Assembly (NCBI RefSeq): GCF_015220045.1 | Contig: NZ_JADBGB010000002.1 | Coordinates: 62,001 to 126,000 of the forward strand | Origin: Marivivens aquimaris | GTDB lineage: Bacteria; Pseudomonadota; Alphaproteobacteria; Rhodobacterales; Rhodobacteraceae | Reading direction: 5' to 3' | Length of the DNA stretch: 64,000 bases | Shown: in pieces, positions 50,391 to 60,975 of the stretch | Layout of the letters: each line of letters starts with the position of its first letter | How positions within the stretch are numbered: position 1 is the stretch's first letter | The notes under the pieces: generated by a model | Seen by the model: only the letters and a program-made list of their open reading frames with translations | Told to the model about the DNA's origin: nothing | Database searches by the model: none | Made by a program: the position numbers and the translations under genes

Positions 50391-50550
50391 GGTATTTTCG
50401 GGGAGTTTGCTTCTGTAGCTGATCTGCGGGCGCATATCACAGCCTGCAAAACAACTCAATGTCGGACGGGGCCATACCCCGAGCGCACATTTTTATCGTT
50501 CAAATCTCAAATAACTATGCGAGACGCGCGAGTTGACGTAGCAGTTGCGT

Positions 50551-51549
50551 ATGAGCAGCGATCTAAATCTCAATGCAATGAACCACTTCGAGGCCGTTGC
50601 CCGCCTCGGCGGGGTTTCGAAAGCGGCCGAAGAGCTTGGCGTGTCTCCCTCTGCGGTCAGCCAGCAGATCAGACAGCTCGAACAGCAGTTCGGAGTCCGC
50701 CTCTTTCGCCGCGAAAAGCGCCGCATGACATTGACGCTGGACGGCGAGCGCCTCTTCCAGTCGACGACTCAAGCGTTCCGCCTGATGCGGGACGTCCAGT
50801 CGGCCATCAAACGCCAGCGCGAAAACCGGCAGTTCATCCTGCGCGTTTCGCCCTCCTTTGCCGTGCGCTGGCTCGGGCCTCGGGTCAAATCCTTCCTCGA
50901 CAGCGCGCCGAACTGGGATCTGAGGATCGACGCGGCGCCGGACTTTACCGATTTCGAGACCGAAGTCGTCGACCTTGATCTGCGCTATGGCGAGGGCGGC
51001 TGGACCGGCCTTCACGAAGACTGCGTGATGCACGACTGCGTGCTGCCCATGTGCTCGCCCCAATACCTTGCGGAACTCAAACAACAGTCGGACAGCCCCA
51101 TCGGGCAGCTTCTGAACGCGCGTCTGATCGACTCGGTCAAAACACACTATCGCTGGGATTTCTGGCTGGCGCGTCAGGGCGTGATGGGTGAGCGGCTTGT
51201 TTATCCGCTGCGCTTCGACCGTTCGTCGATGGCGCTCCAAGTCGCCCGTGACGGTGGCGGCGTGGTGCTGGAAAGCACGACGCTCGCGATTAACGAACTG
51301 GAAAGCGGCGCGCTGGTGCCGCTGTCGAACGCGTTCGAGGTTATCCGCTTCCCCGCCTATTGGATCGTTTGTCCGCCACGCCACACCAGCCGCCGCATTG
51401 TCCGTCTCTTCACCGACTGGATGCGGGCTGAAGGTCAGGCGCATGACGCGCTGGTACAACGCGTGCTGGACGGCCTCGGCTGCCGGAGCCGCGATGTGAC
51501 GGGCCGACAGGTACCCGGCGTCGAATTCATACCCCCTGAAAGCGAATGA
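50551..51549 (+). CDS. LysR-family regulator (GcvA-like)
   Basis: 332 aa. N-terminal winged helix (about 6-65) with GGVSKAAEELGVSPSAVSQQIRQLE and RLFRREKRRMTLT, then a LysR effector domain. The HTH reads like GcvA/AmpR-type members. It lies at the edge of the TRAP/transketolase cluster and converges on it, so it may regulate that cluster; diverges from YgiQ. The ATG at 50551 is chosen over a TTG two codons earlier. Confidence 0.85.
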   Translation: MSSDLNLNAMNHFEAVARLGGVSKAAEELGVSPSAVSQQIRQLEQQFGVRLFRREKRRMTLTLDGERLFQSTTQAFRLMRDVQSAIKRQRENRQFILRVSPSFAVRWLGPRVKSFLDSAPNWDLRIDAAPDFTDFETEVVDLDLRYGEGGWTGLHEDCVMHDCVLPMCSPQYLAELKQQSDSPIGQLLNARLIDSVKTHYRWDFWLARQGVMGERLVYPLRFDRSSMALQVARDGGGVVLESTTLAINELESGALVPLSNAFEVIRFPAYWIVCPPRHTSRRIVRLFTDWMRAEGQAHDALVQRVLDGLGCRSRDVTGRQVPGVEFIPPESE

Positions 51550-51570
51550 CCCCCGCCGGAGCGAGGGTCA
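51547..51570. terminator. Bidirectional terminator between LysR and TRAP genes
   Basis: TGACCC / GGGTCA outer arms and CGC / GCG inner arms around a CGGA tetraloop, with one C-A mismatch. The left arm overlaps the LysR stop codon; the TRAP permease stop is 8 bases to the right. Confidence 0.65.
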
Positions 51571-51577
51571 TCAAAGA

Positions 51578-52834
51578 TCAGTAGATCGTCAGGAACGGCA
51601 GATACGATATCAGCAATAGCACCACGATCCCGACTGCGTAGAATGGGAACAGCGCCCTGACGACTGACCCTATACTCGTCTGCGCAATCGCGGCCGATAT
51701 GAACAGTGTCGTCCCGACCGGAGGCGTGTAGAGGCCGATAGCGAGGTTCACGACCATCATCAGGCCCAGCTGCACCAAATCGAGGCCGATGGCGTTCGCG
51801 ATGGTCACAAACAGCGGGCCGAGCAGCAGAACCGCAGCAGGCAGATCAAGGAAGGTGCCGACGATCAGCATGATGATGTTCATAGCCATAATGACCATCC
51901 ACGGCTCGCTCAGCGCACTGGTCACCCACATCGCGAGCGTTTCGGGCGTGCGCTCGGCGGTCAGGATCCACTGGATCACGTTCGAAGCCATGATGATGAC
52001 CATCACCGCACCGGTCATCACACCCGTGTCAATCATCGCGCGCCAGATGTCCTTGAGCTTGAGGTCGCGGTAGATGCCGCCCGACACGAGGAGCGCGTAG
52101 GCCACCGCCATCACGGAAACCTCCGTAGGAGTCGCAACGCCGAAGCGCAGGGTGCCAATGACGAAGACAGGCATCGCGAGCGCGGGAAGTGCGTGCCAGA
52201 GTTGCGATTTGTAGGCGCGGAAACCTCCGGGGAGTTCAGCGGTCGGCAGGTTCAGCTTCTTCGATACGAAGTAAACGGCGCTGAACATGCCGATACCCAG
52301 CATGACACCCGGAACAATGCCCGCAACAAACAGGTCGATGATCGACGTGTTCGACACCAGACCGTAAAGGATCAGCGGGATCGACGGCGGGATCAGCACC
52401 GAAACGGTCGAGGAAGACGCGTTGACGGCAGCCGCAAAACCGGCGGGATAGCCTTCGCGGCGTTGCACGGGAATCAGCGCGTTCCCGAGTGCCGATGCGT
52501 CCGCTACGGCAGAGCCGGATACGCCGCCAAACATGACCGAGCCGACGATCGAAACCTGTGCCAGACCACCTTTGAAACGGCCAACGAACAGCTTGGCAAT
52601 ATTCACAAGGTATTCGCCGAATTTGCCCGACATCATCAGATTGCCCGCCAGAATAAAGAACGGGATCGCAAGCATCGGGAAGCTCTGCGTCGGCGAATAG
52701 AGGCGCTGCGCCATCACAGCCATCGGCTTGCCGTTGGCCCAGAGCGCGATGCCCGTCGCGCCCAGCATGGCTTGGGCGACAGGCACGGAAATGATGAGGA
52801 AGATCGGAAAGACCCAGATCAAAAGCTTGACCAT
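51578..52834 (-). CDS. dctM: TRAP transporter large permease (DctM type)
   Basis: Inner-membrane large subunit, 418 aa with about 11-12 helices. Conserved blocks are AIPFFILAGNLMMSG, GSVMFGGVSGSAVADASALG and IPPSIPLILYGLVS, then LPAAVLLLGPLFVTIA. It translocates the ligand delivered by the DctP protein, driven by an ion gradient. Last gene of the split-transketolase/SDR operon. Confidence 0.93.
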   Translation of the reverse strand: MVKLLIWVFPIFLIISVPVAQAMLGATGIALWANGKPMAVMAQRLYSPTQSFPMLAIPFFILAGNLMMSGKFGEYLVNIAKLFVGRFKGGLAQVSIVGSVMFGGVSGSAVADASALGNALIPVQRREGYPAGFAAAVNASSSTVSVLIPPSIPLILYGLVSNTSIIDLFVAGIVPGVMLGIGMFSAVYFVSKKLNLPTAELPGGFRAYKSQLWHALPALAMPVFVIGTLRFGVATPTEVSVMAVAYALLVSGGIYRDLKLKDIWRAMIDTGVMTGAVMVIIMASNVIQWILTAERTPETLAMWVTSALSEPWMVIMAMNIIMLIVGTFLDLPAAVLLLGPLFVTIANAIGLDLVQLGLMMVVNLAIGLYTPPVGTTLFISAAIAQTSIGSVVRALFPFYAVGIVVLLLISYLPFLTIY

Positions 52835-52846
52835 TGCGGGCTCCTT

Positions 52847-53371
52847 TTAGCTGTAGCTGACTTGGCTATCGTCAGCGTTTGCCTGACCGCCGATGATGAG
52901 ACGCACCACATTCAGCGCGGCATTGATCGCCATGCAGACGAATGCATAATAAAGGCTGAGGTAGCCCCAGTATTGCGTCACGGGGATCTCGGACAGTTTC
53001 TGGAATTTCGACGCGTTGATGATCGGTTGGCTGGTGTGAACGACCGTCACCGCAATCGCGCAGATCAGGATATTCACCAGAATGGCGAGCACACGGCGCA
53101 GGGGCACCGGAAGCACATAGACCAGAACATCGACCGCGATGTGACGCGCACGAACCGAGGCAATGGCGATACCGCCCGCAACGAGCCACGGGAACAGGAT
53201 CGAGTGGATTTCGTAGGCCCACGTAATGCCGTCACCGAACACGTAGCGTAGGACGACGTTTACCAAAAGCGCGAGGAATGTCGTCAGCAGCGTGCCGAAG
53301 ATGATCACCGCGCCCGACCATTCGATGACCTTATCCACGAGGTCCATTGCCTTGGTCAGGAGGCGGCTCAT
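52847..53371 (-). CDS. dctQ: TRAP transporter small permease (DctQ type)
   Basis: Inner-membrane small subunit, 174 aa, four membrane helices, with the family-typical LLVNVVLRYVFG and ITWAYEIHSILFPWL. The start at 53371 (MSRLLTKAMDL) is preferred over a frame that reads through the upstream hairpin. Encoded between DctM and DctP. Confidence 0.9.
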   Translation of the reverse strand: MSRLLTKAMDLVDKVIEWSGAVIIFGTLLTTFLALLVNVVLRYVFGDGITWAYEIHSILFPWLVAGGIAIASVRARHIAVDVLVYVLPVPLRRVLAILVNILICAIAVTVVHTSQPIINASKFQKLSEIPVTQYWGYLSLYYAFVCMAINAALNVVRLIIGGQANADDSQVSYS

Positions 53372-53375
53372 GCCG

Positions 53376-53403
53376 CCCCCCTCTTTTTGATCCCGCAGGG
53401 GGG
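53376..53403 (-). other. Hairpin between dctP and dctQ
   Basis: CCCCCCT (53376-53382) pairs with AGGGGGG (53397-53403) around a 14-base loop. It directly follows the binding-protein stop on the minus strand. Probably adjusts binding-protein to permease ratios. Confidence 0.5.
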
Positions 53404-54375
53404 TCACTGCGCAGCCTCACGCAGAGCAGCGATCAGATCGCCGAACTGGGCTTCGTAGGTTTCATAAACCGAGGCGGTCGCGTCGATGAATGCCTGACGG
53501 TCTTCGACTTCAGCGAAGATGGCGCCTTCGGCTTCCATGGTTGCGCGCAGCTCATTGCTTTGGGTCAGCGACAGACCACGCTGGTACCAACCGGCTTCTT
53601 TCGCGGCGTTCTCGATGCACGACTGGGTGTCTTCGTCGAGCGACGACCACCACATCAGCGACGCGACGACCGGAGTCGACTCGTACTTGTGGCCGGTCAG
53701 CGTGATGTACGGGGTGATCTCGTGCAGCTTTGCCGAGTAGATGTTGGTCAGCGGGTTTTCCTGACCTTCGAACACGCCCGACTGAAGCGCGGTCGGCAGT
53801 TCCGACCATGCGAGCGGAGCAGGCGATGCGCCGAGAGCTTCGAAGGTGGCGATGGTCACTTCGTCCGACGGGGTGCGGATCTGCATACCGGCGAGGTCCG
53901 CGGGGGTCGGGACGTTCTTGCTGGTGTGGCTGACCTGACGGATGCCGTTGTCCCAGAAGGTGAGGATCTTGAGGCCAGCGTTCTGGGCCTTCTCGTCGAT
54001 CATCTGGCCGACTTCGCCGTCAACCACGGACCAGACGGTCGGCAGGTCTTCGAACAGGAACGGCAGGCCGAGCATACCGGCTTCGGGAACGATCTGCGAA
54101 AGCGGGCCTTGGCTGTTTGCGGAAATCTGGATGATGCCCGCTGCGGTCGACGTCAGCATCTCGACGTCGTTACCCATGGTCGCCGACGGAGCAACGTTCA
54201 CAGTGGTCTCGCCGCCGGTACAGGCCGGAACCAGTGCGCCGAACATTTCGGCAGCCGCGTAGCGCGGGTTACCCGGGTTCGCACCGTGGGCAAAGATGAT
54301 CTCTTCAGCAAAAGCAGGTGCAGCGGTTGCCAGAATAGTCGCGCCAAGGATCGCGGTCTTGAAAGTCGTTTTCAT
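53404..54375 (-). CDS. dctP: TRAP transporter substrate-binding protein (DctP type)
   Basis: Periplasmic binding protein, 323 aa, with a Sec signal peptide (MKTTFKTAILGATILATAAPAFA). The mature sequence begins EIIFAHGANPGNPRY and shows DLAGMQIRTPSDEVTIATFEALGASPAPLAWSELPTALQSGVFEGQENPLTN, a DctP-type ligand site with the conserved arginine in QIRTP. Co-encoded with sugar-phosphate enzymes, so the ligand is probably a polyol, sugar or sugar acid rather than a C4-dicarboxylate. Start at 54375. Confidence 0.9.
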   Translation of the reverse strand: MKTTFKTAILGATILATAAPAFAEEIIFAHGANPGNPRYAAAEMFGALVPACTGGETTVNVAPSATMGNDVEMLTSTAAGIIQISANSQGPLSQIVPEAGMLGLPFLFEDLPTVWSVVDGEVGQMIDEKAQNAGLKILTFWDNGIRQVSHTSKNVPTPADLAGMQIRTPSDEVTIATFEALGASPAPLAWSELPTALQSGVFEGQENPLTNIYSAKLHEITPYITLTGHKYESTPVVASLMWWSSLDEDTQSCIENAAKEAGWYQRGLSLTQSNELRATMEAEGAIFAEVEDRQAFIDATASVYETYEAQFGDLIAALREAAQ

Positions 54376-54468
54376 TGGTATTCTCCCTATTTGGTACAGG
54401 CGGCTCCTCCCCGCCCGGCCGGAAAACTCCGGCGATGGCCCGACATGCGGATGCATGACGGAATTGCG

Positions 54469-54506
54469 CGCTGACCGCCACCCTCACGATGGCGACCAGC
54501 GTTTTT
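54469..54506. other. Hairpin between SDR and dctP genes, T-run on plus strand
   Basis: CGCTG-AC-CGCCA pairs with TGGCG-AC-CAGCG (54469-54480 and 54490-54501) around nine bases, with TTTTT at 54502-54506 on the plus strand. On the minus transcript the T-run precedes the stem, so it is not a normal terminator for the operon. Confidence 0.45.
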
Positions 54507-54508
54507 CG

Positions 54509-55264
54509 TTAGTGGATCAGCGAGCCGCCGTTCACATCGACTTCGGAGCCGGTGCAGTAGGCCGAAAGGTCGGACGCAAGGAACAGGGCGCAGCCTGCAA
54601 CGTCATCGGCAGTACCGGCGCGGCCCATCGGGATGCCTTCCAGAACCATCGCACGCATCTCGTCGGTCAGCTTGCCTGCGGTGATGTCTGTCGCGATGAA
54701 GCCAGGGCAGATCGCATTGAAGCGCACGTTATCGGGCGCACATTCGCGGGCCATGGCTTTGGTCAGGCCGAGGATACCGGCCTTGGCTGCCGAGTAGTGC
54801 GGGCCGCCGAAGATTCCGCCACCGCGCTGCGCCGAAACCGACGACAGGTTCACGACCGAACCGGATTTGCGCGAACGGAAGTGCGGGATCAGCGCCTGAC
54901 TCATGTAGAGAGTGCCGCGCAGGTTCACATCGAGAACCGCGTCATAGTTTTCCGGCTGGATATCCATGATCTTGAGCGGCTGGGTGATGCCAGCGTTGTT
55001 CACGAGGATATCGACAGCGCCCCACTTGGCGACCAGCTCGTCGGCCACAGCCTGACATTCAGCTTTATCGGTGACGTTGCACGCCAGACCAACGTGGCCC
55101 GACCCCGGCAGGTCGTCGGCAGCGGCCTGCGCCTGCTCGGCGTTCAGGTCCAGAATAGCGACAGTCGCGCCGTGCTCTGCAAAGAGCTTTGCGGTCGCTT
55201 TGCCCAGACCACGCGGGGAAGCCCCGCCAGTGACGATGGCATATTTACCGTCAAGAAGTCCCAT
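54509..55264 (-). CDS. SDR-family NAD(P)-dependent dehydrogenase
   Basis: Classical short-chain dehydrogenase, 251 aa. It shows the cofactor motif VTGGASPRGLG, NNAG, the catalytic serine region NLSSVSAQRG and YSAAK. In this operon it is likely to oxidise an imported polyol or sugar, or reduce a keto intermediate. It lies between the transketolase genes and the TRAP genes. FabG-like enzymes share these motifs, but context argues against fatty-acid synthesis. Confidence 0.88.
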   Translation of the reverse strand: MGLLDGKYAIVTGGASPRGLGKATAKLFAEHGATVAILDLNAEQAQAAADDLPGSGHVGLACNVTDKAECQAVADELVAKWGAVDILVNNAGITQPLKIMDIQPENYDAVLDVNLRGTLYMSQALIPHFRSRKSGSVVNLSSVSAQRGGGIFGGPHYSAAKAGILGLTKAMARECAPDNVRFNAICPGFIATDITAGKLTDEMRAMVLEGIPMGRAGTADDVAGCALFLASDLSAYCTGSEVDVNGGSLIH

Positions 55265-55292
55265 TGTTTTCCCTTTCGTAAGTGCGTCAGGC

Positions 55293-56321
55293 TCAGAGCC
55301 AGCCGCGGATCTGTTCGGCGACCTTCGCGGTGCTCAGGCCGTACATGTCGTGCAAGGTCGGCAGTGCGCCGGCCTCGAGAAACTGATCGGGGAGGCCGAT
55401 CTGCCGGAACGTCGGTGTGACGCCAGCAGTCAGGAGAGAGGTAGCAACAGCCTCGCCCAACCCGCCGATCACCGTGTGGTTTTCGGCAGTCACCAAGAGC
55501 CGCCCTTTGCGGGCCTCGGTAATGATTGTTTCGGTATCCAGCGGCTTGATCGTCGGGCAGTGCAGCACCGCCACGTCGATCCCGTCCTTCGCCAGCAGTT
55601 CGGCGGCGTCGAGCGCGCGCATCGTCATGATGCCGGAAGTGACGACCAGCACGTCGCCGCCTTCGCGGATCATCTGCGCCTTGCCCAGTTTGAACTGGTA
55701 GTCAGGCTTGTAGCGGGTCAGTACCGAAGGCACCTTGCCGCGCAACAGACGGGCGTAGACCGGCCCGTTGTGGTCGACCATCGCGGGCACCATCTGCGCC
55801 ACGTCCGTCGCATCCGCCGGATCAATGATCGTCATGTTCGGCAGACCGCGGAAGATCGCGAGATCCTCGGTCGCTTGGTGGCTAGGGCCGTAGCCTGTGG
55901 TGAGGCCCGGCAGGCCGCAGACGATTTTGACGGGGAGGTTTTCCTCGGCAATCGCCATGCAGATAAAGTCGTAAGCGCGGCGCGACGCGAAGACGGCGTA
56001 GGTCGTGGCGAAAGGCACATAGCCTTCGTGCGCCATGCCCGCCGCGGCCGAGAACAACAGCTGCTCCGCCATACCCATTTGGTAGAACCGGTCGGGGTTG
56101 GCCTGCGCAAAGATGTGCAGGTCGGTGTATTTCGCGAGGTCAGCCGACAGGCCAACAATGCGGTCGTCCTTCGCAGCAACTTCGTTCAACGCTTGACCGA
56201 ACGGAGCCGCAACGGTGTCATACCCTTCGGCGGCCAGCGACGCGATCATCGCGCTCGTTGCGACCTTGGTTTGCGGAGCCTGACGCGGCTCGTATTTGCG
56301 GGCGCGTGCGTTGGCGGTCAT
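55293..56321 (-). CDS. Transketolase, C-terminal half (split enzyme)
   Basis: 342 aa, corresponding to the pyrimidine-binding and C-terminal domains of transketolase. RFYQMGMAEQLLFSAAAGMAHEG carries the conserved glutamate that activates thiamine diphosphate, and GPSHQATEDLAIFRG follows. The start overlaps the N-terminal half gene by 4 bases. With its partner it forms a two-subunit transketolase that moves a C2 unit between sugar phosphates, or between an unusual ketose phosphate and an aldose phosphate. Confidence 0.9.
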   Translation of the reverse strand: MTANARARKYEPRQAPQTKVATSAMIASLAAEGYDTVAAPFGQALNEVAAKDDRIVGLSADLAKYTDLHIFAQANPDRFYQMGMAEQLLFSAAAGMAHEGYVPFATTYAVFASRRAYDFICMAIAEENLPVKIVCGLPGLTTGYGPSHQATEDLAIFRGLPNMTIIDPADATDVAQMVPAMVDHNGPVYARLLRGKVPSVLTRYKPDYQFKLGKAQMIREGGDVLVVTSGIMTMRALDAAELLAKDGIDVAVLHCPTIKPLDTETIITEARKGRLLVTAENHTVIGGLGEAVATSLLTAGVTPTFRQIGLPDQFLEAGALPTLHDMYGLSTAKVAEQIRGWL

Positions 56322-57169
56322 GCGGGAGCTCCTTCATCCAGAATGGCCAGAGCCTTGTCCCACTCATCCGCTTCGACGCGGACAAAGTGGGTGATTTCAC
56401 GGGCTTCGAGGAACGGCACGCCTTTGCACATCGTGGTGTTGCAGATGATGACGCGCGGCTGGGTGCCTTCATGATTGCGGGCCGCATCGAAGGCCGCCAC
56501 AAGAGCGTCCATGTCGTTGCCGTCGACCTCTTGGGCGAACCAGCCGAACGCGCTCCATTTGGGCGCTTCGGCACCAACGGCCAGTGCGTCACGGGTCGGG
56601 CCGTCGGCCTGCTGGTTGTTGAAATCGACGATGCAGATCAGGTTATCCAGCTTCCATTGGGTCGCCGACATAACGGCCTCCCACGTCGAACCCTCGCCCA
56701 GCTCACCGTCGGACATCAGGTTATAGACGAACTGGTCGCCGCCCTTGCGTTTCAGACCGAGCGCCATGCCGACAGCAATGCCGAGGCCATGACCGAGCGA
56801 TCCGCCCGTGATCTCCATTCCCGGAGTGTAAGACGCCATGCCGGACATCGGCATCCGGCTGTCATCCATGCCGTAAGTGTCGATCTCGTCTTCGGGCAGA
56901 ACGCCCGCCTCGATCAGCGCTGCATAGAGCGCGATCGCGTAGTGACCGATGGACAGAAGGAAACGGTCGCGGCCTTCCCATTCGGGGTTTTCAGGACGCA
57001 GGTTCAGCGCATGGAAGTACGAAACCGCCAGCACATCGGCCACGCCGAGCGCCTGCCCGACATATCCCTGTCCTTGGACTTGGCCCATCTGCACGGCTTT
57101 GCGCCGGATACCCCAAGCGCGTCGCTCCAGTGACACATTGGCCAGCTGTTTCGCTGTTTCGATTGTCAT
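56318..57169 (-). CDS. Transketolase, N-terminal half (split enzyme)
   Basis: 283 aa, the thiamine-diphosphate-binding half. GHYAIALYAALIEAG, TGGSLGHGLGIAVGMALG, and the ThDP motif MSDGELGEGSTWEAVMSA ending in FNNQQ are visible. A GGAGGA ribosome site fixes the ATG at 57169. First gene of the minus-strand operon. Known split transketolases with dedicated substrates include apulose-4-phosphate transketolase; general pentose-phosphate transketolase is normally a single chain. Confidence 0.9.
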   Translation of the reverse strand: MTIETAKQLANVSLERRAWGIRRKAVQMGQVQGQGYVGQALGVADVLAVSYFHALNLRPENPEWEGRDRFLLSIGHYAIALYAALIEAGVLPEDEIDTYGMDDSRMPMSGMASYTPGMEITGGSLGHGLGIAVGMALGLKRKGGDQFVYNLMSDGELGEGSTWEAVMSATQWKLDNLICIVDFNNQQADGPTRDALAVGAEAPKWSAFGWFAQEVDGNDMDALVAAFDAARNHEGTQPRVIICNTTMCKGVPFLEAREITHFVRVEADEWDKALAILDEGAPA

Positions 57170-57181
57170 ATTTCCTCCCAT

Positions 57182-57201
57182 CGCGGCGGTAGTCTGCCGC
57201 G
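57182..57201 (-). other. Leader hairpin of the transketolase operon
   Basis: CGCGGC (57182-57187) and GCCGCG (57196-57201) around eight bases, just upstream of the first ribosome site. The divergent gap (216 bases) also holds CCGGCCGG twice and a strong GGAGG site before the TIM-barrel gene. No clear palindromic operator was found. Confidence 0.4.
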
Positions 57202-57385
57202 GTTGAAGGAGAACATGGCCTGCAACCGGCCGGAAAAACAATCAACCTATCTTAAATAGCTGTGAAGTATTTCTAAACTAGAACGCACGTGGTTTTCGTT
57301 GGCCGCCCAGAGGTTTTTGTCTACGCCTACAGGTCAACTGCGCCGGAGCGCCCCTCGCATCCGGCCGGAGGAGACGGAGGACATC

Positions 57386-58204
57386 ATGAAACTCGGGCTA
57401 GGCAGCTATGCTTACCGTTGGTCTATCGGCATCAAGGATCAGGTTCCGGCCAAGCCGCTAAACGCGTTCGATCTGCTGGATCGCGCATCCGATCTGGGGC
57501 TGGAGGTCGTGCAATACGCCGACAACATGCCGCTGGACCGCTACAGCGAAGCCGACCACCACAAGATCTATGAAATCGCGCAGGAAAAAGGTCTCGCGCT
57601 CGAACTTGGCACCCAGTGTTTCGATGCCGATCAGGTCGATGAATACGTGGAAATCGGCAAGCGCCTTCACGCGAAAATCCTGCGGGTCGCTCTGGACGAA
57701 GCCGACGGACATATCCCCGTTGCCGAACTGGCCGAACAGCTCCGCCCTCGTGTTGATCGTGCCCGTGCAGCCGGTATGAAGATCGCGATCGAGAACCACT
57801 TCAACTACCCTTCCCCCCGCATGGTCGAGCTGCTGGACGCGGTGAACGATGACCATCTGGGCGTTTGTCTGGACGTTGCGAACTCGATCTGTGCCAACGA
57901 ATGGCCGGAAGAGACCATCGCGATGCTTGCGCCCTATGCGATTAACCTGCACCTCAAAGACTACGAGATCACCCCCGATCCCTACGGCGTCGGGTTCCGC
58001 ATCCACGGCGTTCCGCTCGGCCAAGGGCGCGCGCCGATCGAGTGGACACTTGACCAGCTCAAGCATTGCCCGTCCGATATGAGCGTGATCCTCGAACACT
58101 GGCTGATGATTGATGACGCCGGTCTGGACGCGGCGATCTCCAAAGAGCAACCGTGGATCGAACAGACGGTCGCTGCGGCCAAAAAATTTACCGAAGGACG
58201 TTAA
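57386..58204 (+). CDS. Sugar isomerase/epimerase-like TIM-barrel protein
   Basis: Xylose-isomerase-like/AP-endonuclease-2 fold, 272 aa. Metal-site candidates are E in KIAIENHFNY, D in CLDVANS, H in INLHLKDY, and E in VILEHW. Relatives include hydroxypyruvate isomerase, tagatose/allulose epimerases, D-apiose isomerase-like proteins and 3-oxo-isoapionate decarboxylase. The gene is preceded by GGAGG and followed 2 bases later by a ketose-kinase gene, so it probably makes the kinase substrate. Exact reaction not assigned. Confidence 0.75.
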   Translation: MKLGLGSYAYRWSIGIKDQVPAKPLNAFDLLDRASDLGLEVVQYADNMPLDRYSEADHHKIYEIAQEKGLALELGTQCFDADQVDEYVEIGKRLHAKILRVALDEADGHIPVAELAEQLRPRVDRARAAGMKIAIENHFNYPSPRMVELLDAVNDDHLGVCLDVANSICANEWPEETIAMLAPYAINLHLKDYEITPDPYGVGFRIHGVPLGQGRAPIEWTLDQLKHCPSDMSVILEHWLMIDDAGLDAAISKEQPWIEQTVAAAKKFTEGR

Positions 58205-58205
58205 G

Positions 58206-59942
58206 ATGACCGACGACATTCGCACCAAGAAACTCATCAACGCCCCCGAAGACATCATCTCCCACGCACTTGCAGGCATGATCTCGGCCCACCCCGACAT
58301 GCTGATGATCGAAGGCGCGACCGGACGCGCTGTCGTGGCCAAGGACGGCCCGCGCGACGGTAAGGTCGGCATCGTCATTGGCGGCGGCTCTGGTCACGAG
58401 CCCGCATTCGCCGGTTACGTCGGTCGCGGCCTCGCAGACGCTGCGGCAGTCGGCAACGTATTCGCCTCCCCTTCGCCCGAACAGATCATGGACGCTGCCC
58501 GCGCTGCGGATGGCGGTGCTGGTGTCATGTTCCTCTATGGCAACTACACCGGTGACGTTCTGAACTTCGACATGGCCGCTGAAGAATGCGAAGGCATGGG
58601 CATCCCTGCCCGCTCGGTCGCAGTGACCGACGACGTTGCCTCCGCACCTGCTGACCGCATTGGCGAGCGTCGCGGGATTGCTGGCGACTTCTTTGTCTTC
58701 AAAATCGCAGGTGCCGCTGCTGAACAGGGACGCGATCTGGACGCCTGCTTGGCTGCGGCTCGGAAAGCCAATGACAACTGCCGTTCCATGGGCGTTGCGC
58801 TGACCGCCTGCTCGATGCCGCAAACCGGCAAACCGAATTTCCACATCGGTCACGACGAGATGGAAATCGGCATGGGTGTTCATGGCGAACCCGGTATGCG
58901 CCGCGGCAAGCTGGAAACGGCAGATGAAGTCACGGACGAACTGGTCGAAAAAATTCTGAACGACATGCCGCTTGGCCAAGGCGATGAAGTCGCCGTGCTC
59001 GTCAACGGCCTCGGCGCGACCGGTCAACTTGAGCTTTACATCATCCACCGCCGCGTTGCGCAGATCCTCGACGAGCGCGGCGTCAAAATCCATCACTCGT
59101 GGGTCGGCGAATACTGCACCTCGCTCGAAATGGCGGGTGCTTCGGTGACGTTCCTCAAGCTGGACGACGACCTGAAGGGCCTGCTGGACACTCCGTGCCG
59201 CACCCCTGCCCTGACCGTCGCGGGCCAACTCGCACCTGCTGGCAAGCGCACGAAACGCGACCACAGCGCAGGCGCCGCAAGCAATGCCATCGACCTCTCC
59301 ACCCTCGCGGTGGACGGCGAGGTCACGCCCGCGATCTTCAAGACCATGATGCTGAGCGTCGCTGATGCGATCCGCGAAAACCGCGATTGGCTGTCGGAGC
59401 TCGACGGCGTCATCGGTGACGGCGACCACGGCATCACCATGGATATCGGCTGGACCGCCGTCCGTGGCGAGATCGAAGGCAAGGATTTCCAGACAATCTC
59501 GGAGCTGTCCGAGACAATGGCGAAGTCTTTCCTCGACGCCGTTGGCGCATCCTCTGGCCCGCTCTACGCCTCGGCCTTCCGCCGCGCCGGTCAATCGGTG
59601 TCGAGCCGCCTGAACCTTGACGCTGGCGCGCTGGTCGACTGGATCGAAGGCATCTGCGTCGGCATCCAGTCACGCGGCGGCGCTCAGGTCGGGGACAAAA
59701 CCATGATAGACGCTTGGGTTCCCGCCGTCGCCAAGGCCAAGGAAGCGCTGCAATCCGGCGCCGACCTGAACGGATGCCTCGACGCTGCCATCGCGGGTGC
59801 CACCAGCGGGCGCGACTTCACCGCAACCATCGAAAGCCGCCGTGGCCGCTCCGCCAAGCTCGGCGACCGCTCGATCGGTCACGTCGACCCCGGCGCGGCG
59901 TCGGCTGTGGTCATCCTGACCGCGATGAAATCGGGCATCTAA
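58206..59942 (+). CDS. Dihydroxyacetone-kinase-type ketose kinase (DhaK-DhaL fusion)
   Basis: ATP-dependent kinase, 578 aa. The DhaK part (1 to about 330) has IGGGSGHEP and the substrate-binding histidine H226 in MGVHGEPGMRR. The DhaL part (about 365-578) has the ATP/Mg site DGVIGDGDHG. This single-chain ATP-using form also includes erythrulose and other short-ketose kinases. It is translationally linked to the TIM-barrel gene. The substrate may be dihydroxyacetone, a tetrulose or a branched ketose. A strong hairpin follows the stop. Confidence 0.88.
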   Translation: MTDDIRTKKLINAPEDIISHALAGMISAHPDMLMIEGATGRAVVAKDGPRDGKVGIVIGGGSGHEPAFAGYVGRGLADAAAVGNVFASPSPEQIMDAARAADGGAGVMFLYGNYTGDVLNFDMAAEECEGMGIPARSVAVTDDVASAPADRIGERRGIAGDFFVFKIAGAAAEQGRDLDACLAAARKANDNCRSMGVALTACSMPQTGKPNFHIGHDEMEIGMGVHGEPGMRRGKLETADEVTDELVEKILNDMPLGQGDEVAVLVNGLGATGQLELYIIHRRVAQILDERGVKIHHSWVGEYCTSLEMAGASVTFLKLDDDLKGLLDTPCRTPALTVAGQLAPAGKRTKRDHSAGAASNAIDLSTLAVDGEVTPAIFKTMMLSVADAIRENRDWLSELDGVIGDGDHGITMDIGWTAVRGEIEGKDFQTISELSETMAKSFLDAVGASSGPLYASAFRRAGQSVSSRLNLDAGALVDWIEGICVGIQSRGGAQVGDKTMIDAWVPAVAKAKEALQSGADLNGCLDAAIAGATSGRDFTATIESRRGRSAKLGDRSIGHVDPGAASAVVILTAMKSGI

Positions 59943-59950
59943 GCCTTGCT

Positions 59951-59975
59951 GGCGCGCGGAATGATCCCGCGCGCC
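59951..59975 (+). terminator. Hairpin after the ketose-kinase gene
   Basis: Perfect 9-base arms GGCGCGCGG / CCGCGCGCC around seven bases, 8 bases after the stop, without a T-run. Likely a partial terminator before the separately promoted reductase-TetR unit. Confidence 0.55.
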
Positions 59976-60057
59976 ATGCCACCAAACACAAACGTCGGAC
60001 ATATTATGTGCTAACCGCACATTTATTTCCGCCGACCCCTTGCGAGATTTTTTACGA

Positions 60058-60074
60058 ATTACATATTTTGTAAT
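60058..60074. promoter_or_regulatory. TetR operator candidate upstream of AKR-TetR unit
   Basis: ATTACA-TATTT-TGTAAT, a perfect 6-base inverted repeat with a 5-base spacer, flanked by CGA/TCG. It lies 29 bases before the reductase start. Its TACA-N5-TGTA core matches the palindrome at 23925-23939 next to a similar TetR gene. The surrounding stretch is unusually AT-rich, as in a promoter. Confidence 0.55.
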
Positions 60075-60102
60075 ATCGAACTCCTCTGCAAGGACATTCC
60101 AG

Positions 60103-60975
60103 ATGAAAGACATTGAAACCGCAGGCACTTGGCTGCTCGGCGACAAACGCGTCAACCGCATGGGCTACGGCGCTATGCAGCTGGCGGGTAAGGGCGCTTT
60201 CGGCGAACCACGCGACCGCGACGGCGCGATTGCCGTGCTGCGTGAAGCCATGGAACTCGGCATCAACCACATCGACACCAGCGATTTCTACGGCCCGCAC
60301 GTCACTAACCACATCATCCGCGAGGCGCTGCACCCCTACGCGGACGATCTCACAATCGTGACCAAGATCGGCGCCCGCCGCGACGCCGAAGGCAACTGGC
60401 TGCCCGCGCAATCCAACGACGAACTGACCGCGGCTGTCGAAGACAACCTGCGCAACCTCGGCCTTGATGTGATCGACGTGGTGAACATGCGCTTCATGGG
60501 CGGCGGCGCGGGTCATGGCCCCAGCGAAGAACCGATCGCACGCCAGATGGAGCAGATGGTCAAACTGCAAGAGCGCGGCCTTATCAAGCATATCGGCATC
60601 AGCAACGTCACCCACGCCCAGACCCGCGTGGCGCGCGAAATGGCGGATATCGTGTGCGTGCAGAACCTCTACAACCTCGCCAATCGCGGCGATGACGAGA
60701 TGATCGACGAACTGGCAAAGGCCGGAATCGCCTACGTGCCGTTCTTCCCGCTGGGTGGTTTCTCTCCGCTGCAATCGGACGAACTGGCCGCTGTGGCCAA
60801 GGACGTGGATGCCTCCCCGCTGCAAGTCGCGCTGGCGTGGCTGCTGCGCCGCTCGCCCAATATCCTGCTGATCCCCGGCACCTCGTCGGTCGATCACCTG
60901 CGCGAAAACGTGGAGGCGGCAACGCTGAAACTGGACGACGACGCGATGGCTGCTCTGGACAAGATCGGCAAGTAA
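60103..60975 (+). CDS. Aldo/keto reductase (YdbC-like subfamily)
   Basis: NADPH-dependent reductase, 290 aa. Catalytic D and Y are in NHIDTSDFYGPH and K in IVTKIGARRD. The usual histidine position reads VVNMRFMGG, so the fourth catalytic residue seems replaced, which is seen in some AKR subfamilies. It starts after a TetR-type palindrome and is followed by a TetR gene on the same strand, so it is probably the regulator's main target. It may act on carbonyl intermediates of the neighbouring sugar cluster. Confidence 0.82.
   Translation: MKDIETAGTWLLGDKRVNRMGYGAMQLAGKGAFGEPRDRDGAIAVLREAMELGINHIDTSDFYGPHVTNHIIREALHPYADDLTIVTKIGARRDAEGNWLPAQSNDELTAAVEDNLRNLGLDVIDVVNMRFMGGGAGHGPSEEPIARQMEQMVKLQERGLIKHIGISNVTHAQTRVAREMADIVCVQNLYNLANRGDDEMIDELAKAGIAYVPFFPLGGFSPLQSDELAAVAKDVDASPLQVALAWLLRRSPNILLIPGTSSVDHLRENVEAATLKLDDDAMAALDKIGK

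Follow-up and report, generated by a model that had tools for sequence, protein, structure and literature searches.

In a 64,000-nucleotide stretch of the Marivivens aquimaris genome (hereafter the window), we identify a gene cassette, comprising a LysR-type regulator, the three components of a TRAP importer, a short-chain dehydrogenase (SDR) and the two halves of a split transketolase (TK), with divergent genes for a TIM-barrel protein and a fused DhaK–DhaL kinase (DhaKL), in whose TK pocket, judged by alignment, most of the residues that hold phosphorylated sugars are gone. We tentatively propose, short of holding it probable, that the cassette serves aldonate catabolism: the acid would be imported by the TRAP system, oxidized by the SDR to a keto-aldonate and cut by the split TK to a C4 semialdehyde, which would pass either into the tetronate route or, through the TIM barrel and DhaKL, to dihydroxyacetone phosphate (DHAP). 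No description of the core gene set was found in open-licence PMC papers, and such a route would account for an unnamed gene set of soil, plant-associated and marine bacteria.

Pfam and NCBIfam confirmed, call and strand, every gene named in an earlier, sequence-only reading of this DNA. On the reverse strand lie the TRAP large permease DctM (51578..52834; PF06808, E 2.6e-115; TIGR00786 above cutoff), the small permease DctQ (52847..53407; PF04290), the solute-binding protein DctP (53404..54456, likely start 54378 by homology; PF03480, TIGR00787), the SDR (54509..55264; PF13561), the TK C-half with its pyrimidine-binding and C-terminal domains (55293..56321; PF02779 and PF02780) and, adjacent to it, the ThDP-binding N-half (56318..57241, likely start around 57169/57181 by homology; PF00456). 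The forward strand carries the putative TIM-barrel isomerase/epimerase of the AP_endonuc_2 family (57299..58204, likely start 57386 by homology; PF01261), the Dak1–Dak2 fusion DhaKL (58110..59942, likely start 58206; PF02733 and PF02734; PRK14479 above cutoff) and, past a forward-strand hairpin 3′ of DhaKL that is the probable end of the unit (59948..59979; −24.1 kcal/mol, z −4.5), an aldo/keto reductase (60040..60975; PRK10376 family, 484 bits against a cutoff of 280). A GcvA-like LysR gene, also on the forward strand (50545..51549; Pfam HTH_1 and LysR_substrate) and presumed to regulate the cassette, is a member of it, yet falls beyond the interval 51578..60975 that the earlier reading had set.

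Conservation was scored by tblastn, with thresholds of our own setting, in 127 related loci carrying the TK N-half gene (the 80 best from one search, 19 hand-picked plasmid records and 28 from a genome search); with four pairs each covering a single stretch twice, at most 123 loci are distinct, and Rhodobacterales are over-represented. The C-half gene accompanies the N-half in 126 of the 127 and an SDR does so in 115, so the arrangement is not a matter of chance; a LysR homologue is found in 95. This TK–SDR core extends across alpha-, beta- and gammaproteobacteria, is often plasmid-borne and is paired with interchangeable importers of anion type. The aldo/keto reductase, which had been proposed as a pathway member, is rejected as such: it occurs in a single related locus (1/127; L112), the hairpin separates it from DhaKL, and for these reasons it is probably a bystander outside the pathway.

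The two-chain layout of the TK is shared with the split TK of Carboxydothermus hydrogenoformans (PDB 6yaj/6yak), the closest solved homologue by sequence for both halves, which, unlike the core enzyme, retains the canonical-motif His and Asp in its C-half. The canonical TK substrate site for hydroxylated, phosphorylated substrates (H26, H100, R358, H461 and D469 of E. coli TktA) is absent from the window enzyme: H26 is replaced by Y and H100 by S in the N-half, while in the C-half H461 is replaced by L, R358 is lost and D469 is either Y or deleted. Among 110 aligned TK pairs (both halves called as open reading frames within length or score limits, others dropped; 100 distinct sequences), H26, H100, H461 and D469 read as Y, S, L and Y in 110/110, the D469 column being Y in one alignment and a gap in another. 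Most family members likewise lack R358, an assignment that outside the window depends on the alignment: the first showed V or I plus two R among 74, and a later one no Arg at the column, with Arg in 14/110 and Lys in 6/110 one column before. E411, H66, H473, H261 and R520 (E. coli numbering) are retained in the family. Of seven split TKs from outside the family, six retain H26, H100 and R358, and six likewise differ at H461 and D469. A TK with a canonical pocket sits elsewhere in the Marivivens genome (L130), in support of the earlier suggestion that the split TK is a dedicated, non-housekeeping enzyme tied to the importer and SDR. A companion full-length TK occurs in 32 of 93 loci, and 27 of the 28 sequences aligned show R358→I together with D469→N; we left it out of the explanation, the second TK of the Marivivens genome (L131) being canonical at R358 and D469.

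These substitutions recall an engineered enzyme, TktA R358I/H461S/R520Q, which converts 5-keto-D-gluconate to tartaric semialdehyde (available part of PMC12016104). As described in that part, the engineered route shares with our proposal a keto-aldonate made by oxidation, a TK altered at R358 and H461 and a kinase leading from dihydroxyacetone (DHA) to DHAP; unlike the man-made, single-chain variant, in which R520 is changed too, the core TK is natural and split, keeps R520 in 110/110 members, is changed at H26, H100 and D469, and has its own importer and regulator. By this residue parallel, the core TKs look like a natural family that would accept an unphosphorylated keto-aldonate and are predicted to cleave it. 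A review, in its available part, holds that the TK cutting 5-keto-gluconate in tartaric acid synthesis must take an unphosphorylated substrate, points to an E. coli mutant and the grapevine isoform VvTk2 as backing, and calls for this to be confirmed biochemically (PMC11066805); the bacterial core family, with several sugar-phosphate recognition residues replaced and operons that include a dehydrogenase and an acid-type importer, makes that question directly testable. It is possible, if doubtful, that the family represents a naturally occurring class of split TKs that are (3R)-selective, do not depend on phosphate and take keto-sugar acids as donors. Their two-enzyme 'dehydrogenate and cut' route would shorten aldonates by two carbons and supply tetronate catabolism, and it would be common among Proteobacteria and spread by plasmids. 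In TktA, H26Y and D469Y each reverse stereoselectivity; this mismatches 5-keto-D-gluconate itself and would suit a C4 epimer such as 5-keto-galactonate. The core TKs, with such a reversal predicted, are candidate biocatalysts.

Loss of phosphate-binding residues would also suit a small acceptor, and the engineered strain design pairs formaldehyde as acceptor with glycerone kinase toward DHAP (available part of PMC12016104). A dihydroxyacetone-synthase-like role, with formaldehyde as the physiological ketol acceptor and DhaKL phosphorylating the resulting DHA, nevertheless seems improbable to us, given DhaKL in 18/127 core loci and no formaldehyde-related gene among the ten open reading frames at 50545–60975.

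As for what is imported, all three DctPQM components are present, and DctP carries an arginine in an IRT motif, invariant in 25/25 aligned sequences, that we take to be a carboxylate-type ligand residue. Importers within the classified core operons are TRAP, ACS-like MFS and shikimate-like MFS systems, all anion types, with every MFS match below its NCBIfam cut-off. Our preferred aldonate reading would have the TRAP system bring in most likely a C6 acid of the gluconate, galactonate or idonate type; the SDR would then oxidize the hydroxyl adjoining the terminal CH2OH to give a 5-keto-hexonate-type keto-aldonate, and the split TK would take off the terminal two-carbon ketol, passing it to glyceraldehyde-3-phosphate or an unphosphorylated aldehyde acceptor and leaving a C4 aldehyde acid (tetruronate, that is, tartaric semialdehyde). 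This acid would enter tetronate catabolism through an LtnD-like dehydrogenase and OtnI/OtnK/OtnC; in the window variant we infer that the TIM-barrel isomerase/epimerase and then DhaKL would turn it into DHAP. The SDR has the YxxxK motif, and its nearest PDB sequence is 7krk; an Asp after beta-2 is the rule for NAD preference in SDRs, and its presence here suggests the use of NAD. In favour of this reading, some loci have amidohydrolase or SMP-30/gluconolactonase genes close to the core. Against it stand ribose-type ABC genes, whose type imports neutral sugars and which come after the TRAP genes in several loci of rhizobia, as well as the kept R520, the alignment dependence of R358, the H461 and D469 changes in other split TKs and the mismatch between reversed stereoselectivity and 5-keto-D-gluconate.

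The core is also linked to tetronate genes. OtnC occurs in 20/24 core genomes against 49/374 without the core (Fisher 2.9e-13), a link that holds within families (stratified OR 32.7, permutation p 5e-5) and under family and size matching (19 observed against 9.4 expected, n=23), genome families and sizes having been transcribed by hand; the control, UxaC, shows no link (7/24 core against 67/374 other genomes; stratified OR 0.61). Against the aldonate proposal, four of the 24 core genomes have no OtnC over the cutoff, one of them (G289) scoring 226 bits against 250. By tblastn, an LtnD-like gene lies in 35/127 core loci and OtnK in 12/127, and in L160/L178 the core lies on the same contig as genes for DhaKL, a TIM barrel, RpiB (rpiB), transaldolase and TKT and as LtnD-, OtnK-, OtnC- and OtnI-like genes. 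The L-threonate/tetronate pathway (LtnD–OtnI–OtnK–OtnC), as described in the available part of PMC12540250, resembles the proposed route in leading from a C4 acid to DHAP and differs in having no TK; the window cluster in turn lacks its genes, none of the four being present among the ten open reading frames. On contig C4 of the Marivivens genome, OtnK and OtnC exceed their cutoffs and an OtnI-like gene stays under its own; the LtnD-like matches in that genome also fall short (183 and 155 bits against a cutoff of 350), a point against the aldonate proposal. We dropped the idea of local mutual exclusion between Otn and TIM/DhaKL genes, one locus being in both sets with about two expected by chance.

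Might tetronate itself be the substrate? It would be imported and oxidized by the SDR or an LtnD-like enzyme to 3-oxotetronate, which the TK would split into glyoxylate and an acceptor-bound C2 ketol. LtnD-like beta-hydroxyacid dehydrogenases act near the carboxylate, and one occupies the SDR position in two loci (L137 and L166), which also fits a C4 substrate; OtnK in core loci is in keeping with this, as are 2-hydroxyacid dehydrogenase genes between the SDR and DctP (L037, L040 and L052) or after the SDR (L048 and L090). The dependency is one-sided, however: OtnC is found in 20/24 core genomes and the core in 20/69 OtnC genomes, which fits a core that feeds into the Otn route better than a tetronate substrate. 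With no clear task left for the TIM barrel and DhaKL, we consider tetronate import unlikely.

A branched acid of the isoapionate type, with the TK cutting a 3-oxoisoapionate-like substrate to hydroxypyruvate, is less likely than any other reading considered here. A DRL-domain oxidoreductase, which we take to be possibly related to D-apionate oxidoisomerase, occurs in 27/127 core loci, mostly beside the TK N-half gene, but not among the ten open reading frames; OiaX exceeds its cutoff in 4/24 core genomes against 3/374 others, a link that is weaker by family (stratified OR 6.3, p 0.06) and falls below that of OtnC. RuBisCO-like OiaX relatives are enriched in core genomes too (stratified OR 3.2), which tells against the aldonate proposal, and an isoapionate-pathway enzyme is encoded elsewhere in the Marivivens genome. 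Our guess that NF042435 is an apionate model was wrong.

The earlier suggestion that the TIM barrel and DhaKL have a pathway role is supported for some of the loci: by tblastn, 20/127 core loci contain at least one of the two genes, and in L160 the core is accompanied by a separate DhaKL of diverged sequence and by a different TIM barrel. The window kinase is an ATP-type fusion of DhaK and DhaL with the substrate-binding His and with HGEPG and DGDHG motifs, and DHA or erythrulose are candidate substrates. In the TIM barrel, Glu, Asp, His and Glu are invariant in two alignments, and the best folds for its model are ketose 3-epimerases, including a T. maritima L-ketose-3-epimerase, a match that speaks for the aldonate proposal, although the model is of medium confidence (pLDDT 72, TM about 0.55). 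Neither OtnI or hydroxypyruvate isomerase (TIM profile against two OtnI-like proteins, E 0.01 and 0.21, in a four-sequence file) nor OiaX (whose NCBIfam model is a 412-position family matching elsewhere in the genome) was accepted as its identity.

That modelled resemblance would also suit import of a branched or C4–C5 ketose or polyol, with oxidation by the SDR to a ketose, TK transfer and DhaKL acting on DHA or erythrulose, as would tpi and rpiB near DhaKL in L109 and rpiB beside the related DhaKL of L160, which could handle erythrulose phosphates, the D-threitol dehydrogenase and DhaK/DhaL genes after the TIM gene in L126, and the rhizobial ribose-type ABC genes. Set against the anion-type importers with their invariant DctP arginine, the small share of loci with DhaKL and the strong OtnC co-occurrence, uptake of a ketose or polyol, as the sequence-only reading suggested, or of apiose becomes decidedly unlikely. 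Apulose-4-phosphate and sulfofructose TKs are dedicated TKs in catabolic operons, and the D-apiose/apulose pathway combines an FGGY apulose kinase with apulose-4-phosphate TK; the cassette is set apart from them by gene content alone, no FGGY kinase or sulfosugar gene being present among the ten open reading frames. A published rhodobacterial D-apiose pathway, in the available part of its description, uses other genes (PMC11747546). An FGGY kinase gene does lie in a neighbouring unit of one related locus (L125).

Across the ten ORFs scanned between 50545 and 60975, the gene identities proposed by the sequence-only reading were borne out, with a LysR regulator to be added to its list. The true start of the TIM barrel is probably 57386, that of the fused DhaK-DhaL kinase (DhaKL) 58206, that of DctP 54378, and that of the transketolase (TK) N-half about 57169 or 57181. 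The same reading had counted an aldo/keto reductase (PRK10376 family; 484 bits, cutoff 280) as a pathway member; we omit it from the gene set because a hairpin of -24.1 kcal/mol precedes its gene and only 1 of 127 other core loci contains it. As families, the TRAP importer, SDR and DhaKL are ordinary. What is unusual is a TK pocket whose remodelling is fixed, importers that are exchanged around the core, and a strong coupling of the core to tetronate catabolism.

The split enzyme has E411, H66, H261, H473 and R520 (E. coli TktA numbering) in common with the canonical TK encoded in its genome, but not other substrate residues. In a pocket alignment of 110 pairs, 100 of them distinct, the H26, H100, H461 and D469 positions read Y, S, L and Y in 110/110 each, the D469 reading hinging on the placement of a one-residue gap. 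R358 is also lost in the window's split TK; its column holds Arg in 0/110, while the preceding column, which another alignment would match to R358, holds Arg in 14/110 and Lys in 6/110. H26, H100 and R358 are retained in 6/7 other split TKs of the sample, but H461 and D469 are lost in 6/7, so these last two changes are not specific to the family. The engineering literature reports that either H26Y or D469Y alone inverts which enantiomer E. coli TK prefers, that A29E, H461S and R520V raise its activity with unphosphorylated acceptors (PMC3657141), and that TktA R358I/H461S/R520Q cleaves 5-keto-D-gluconate to tartaric semialdehyde; the strain design there has formaldehyde as acceptor and relies on glycerone kinase for DHAP (PMC12016104). 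From these results we infer that the natural family carries, fixed, changes resembling those that give less phosphate dependence and R-selectivity. A review lists a TK for unphosphorylated 5-keto-gluconate as an open requirement (PMC11066805). A cousin split TK, 36-38% identical (L016, G016:C3), shares Y at H26 and L at H461, and has lost H100, R358 and D469 too. Separately, a second full-length TK (fam7, e.g. L044:7875-9893 (-)) lies near the core in 32/93 loci; it is non-canonical, with R358->I, the change also made in the engineered TktA triple mutant, and D469->N in 27/28 aligned sequences.

TK N-half matches occur in 251 plasmid records (E <= 1e-40) from Rhizobium, Pantoea, Agrobacterium, Bradyrhizobium, Sinorhizobium, Paraburkholderia and other genera, 66 of them at <60% identity and some of these being other split TKs. 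Within the window's phylum, the family is present in 24/398 sampled genomes (E <= 1e-70), the window's own included. The N-half is accompanied by the C-half in 126, the SDR in 115, a LysR homologue in 95 and a DctP of the window's type in 54 of the 127 loci, a Rhodobacterales-biased set that includes four pairs of identical stretch. On a mobilizable plasmid of Sulfitobacter THAF37, TK, SDR, TRAP and LysR genes stand alone, flanked by transposition and mobilisation genes, indicating that the core can be self-contained.

Genome-wide, OtnC exceeded its cutoff in 20/24 core genomes versus 49/374 others (Fisher p 2.9e-13). With ten families taken as strata, the odds ratio (OR) was 32.7 (permutation p 5e-5), and matching for family and genome size gave 19 observed against 9.4 expected (23 matched genomes). 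The corresponding counts for the controls were 7/24 versus 67/374 for the hexuronate enzyme UxaC (stratified OR 0.61), 4/24 versus 3/374 for OiaX (6.3, p 0.06) and 9/24 versus 14/374 for RuBisCO-like OiaX relatives at >= 370 bits (3.2, p 0.017), making the tetronate link the strongest among the associations tested. The link runs one way: OtnC is present in most core genomes, but the core is missing from most OtnC genomes. OtnK, OtnC and OtnI each occur in 11 of the best 80 genome-contig loci and 1/19 plasmid loci, and an LtnD-like gene in 35/127 loci; on contig C4 of the window's genome, OtnK and OtnC score above cutoff, alongside an OtnI-like gene at 288 bits (cutoff 325). That genome also encodes OiaX (G000:C1:1883747-1884976, in L173 and L174; 784 bits, cutoff 700), and so may contain a D-apionate pathway as well.

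In the mechanism we propose, the TRAP system would import an aldonate, the SDR would convert it to a keto-aldonate, and the split TK would remove a ketol, leaving a tetruronate; this would reach DHAP via LtnD/Otn or TIM/DhaKL, and the C2 unit would enter pentose phosphates or DHA. By our working, D-gluconate and D-galactonate share the C1-C4 configuration of L-threonate, in keeping with the LtnD link. If the split TK is R-selective, a donor of 5-keto-galactonate type would be more likely than 5-keto-gluconate, or else TIM would act as an epimerase. The closest folds to the predicted TIM model (pLDDT 72) are ketose 3-epimerases, and its Glu/Asp/His/Glu set is invariant across 19 aligned relatives. 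TIM could epimerise the keto-acid beside its carbonyl; it could instead form 3-oxotetronate by isomerising the C4 semialdehyde, and decarboxylation of the 3-oxotetronate would then provide DHA for DhaKL.

TIM and/or DhaKL occur in 20/127 loci, and 10/13 plasmid TIM matches adjoin the TK core (seven from annotation, three from coordinates), the other three lying apart. In a genome of another class (L160), the core is joined by a DhaKL that has diverged (37%), a different TIM-barrel gene, rpiB, transaldolase and a transketolase, with LtnD-OtnK-OtnC-OtnI-like genes 8 to 15 kb from the core/DhaKL/TIM set. The genes tkt-deoR-tpi-rpiB lie near TIM-DhaKL in Aestuarium (L109) and also on the window's contig (L131, G000:C2:1-9000), where a quinolinate/NAD gene set comes after them.

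The cargo of TRAP and ACS transporters is mostly organic anions, and the importer types mostly point to an acid substrate. All 25 aligned DctP sequences keep the IRT arginine. In addition to TRAP elsewhere, the core operons of Pantoea and Klebsiella pneumoniae contain an ACS-like MFS, closest to the D-galactonate transporter model (350 and 250 bits, below the cutoff of 395), and that of K. aerogenes a metabolite/shikimate-type MFS with scores below cutoffs; further loci have homologues of both. Counting against an acid substrate, several rhizobial loci carry ribose-type ABC genes and an amidohydrolase after the TRAP genes. In many Rhodobacterales loci, an oxidoreductase with a DRL catalytic domain (e.g. 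L076:7262-8608 (-)), its family present in 27/127 loci, is encoded divergently from the TK core; GntR, sugar-acid dehydratase genes and a second TRAP system frequently accompany it. At G000:C2:129428-131281, 3.4 kb beyond the end of the window, TRAP-type genes also adjoin a QuiC-like dehydroshikimate dehydratase homologue, which scores 672 bits against a cutoff of 1200.
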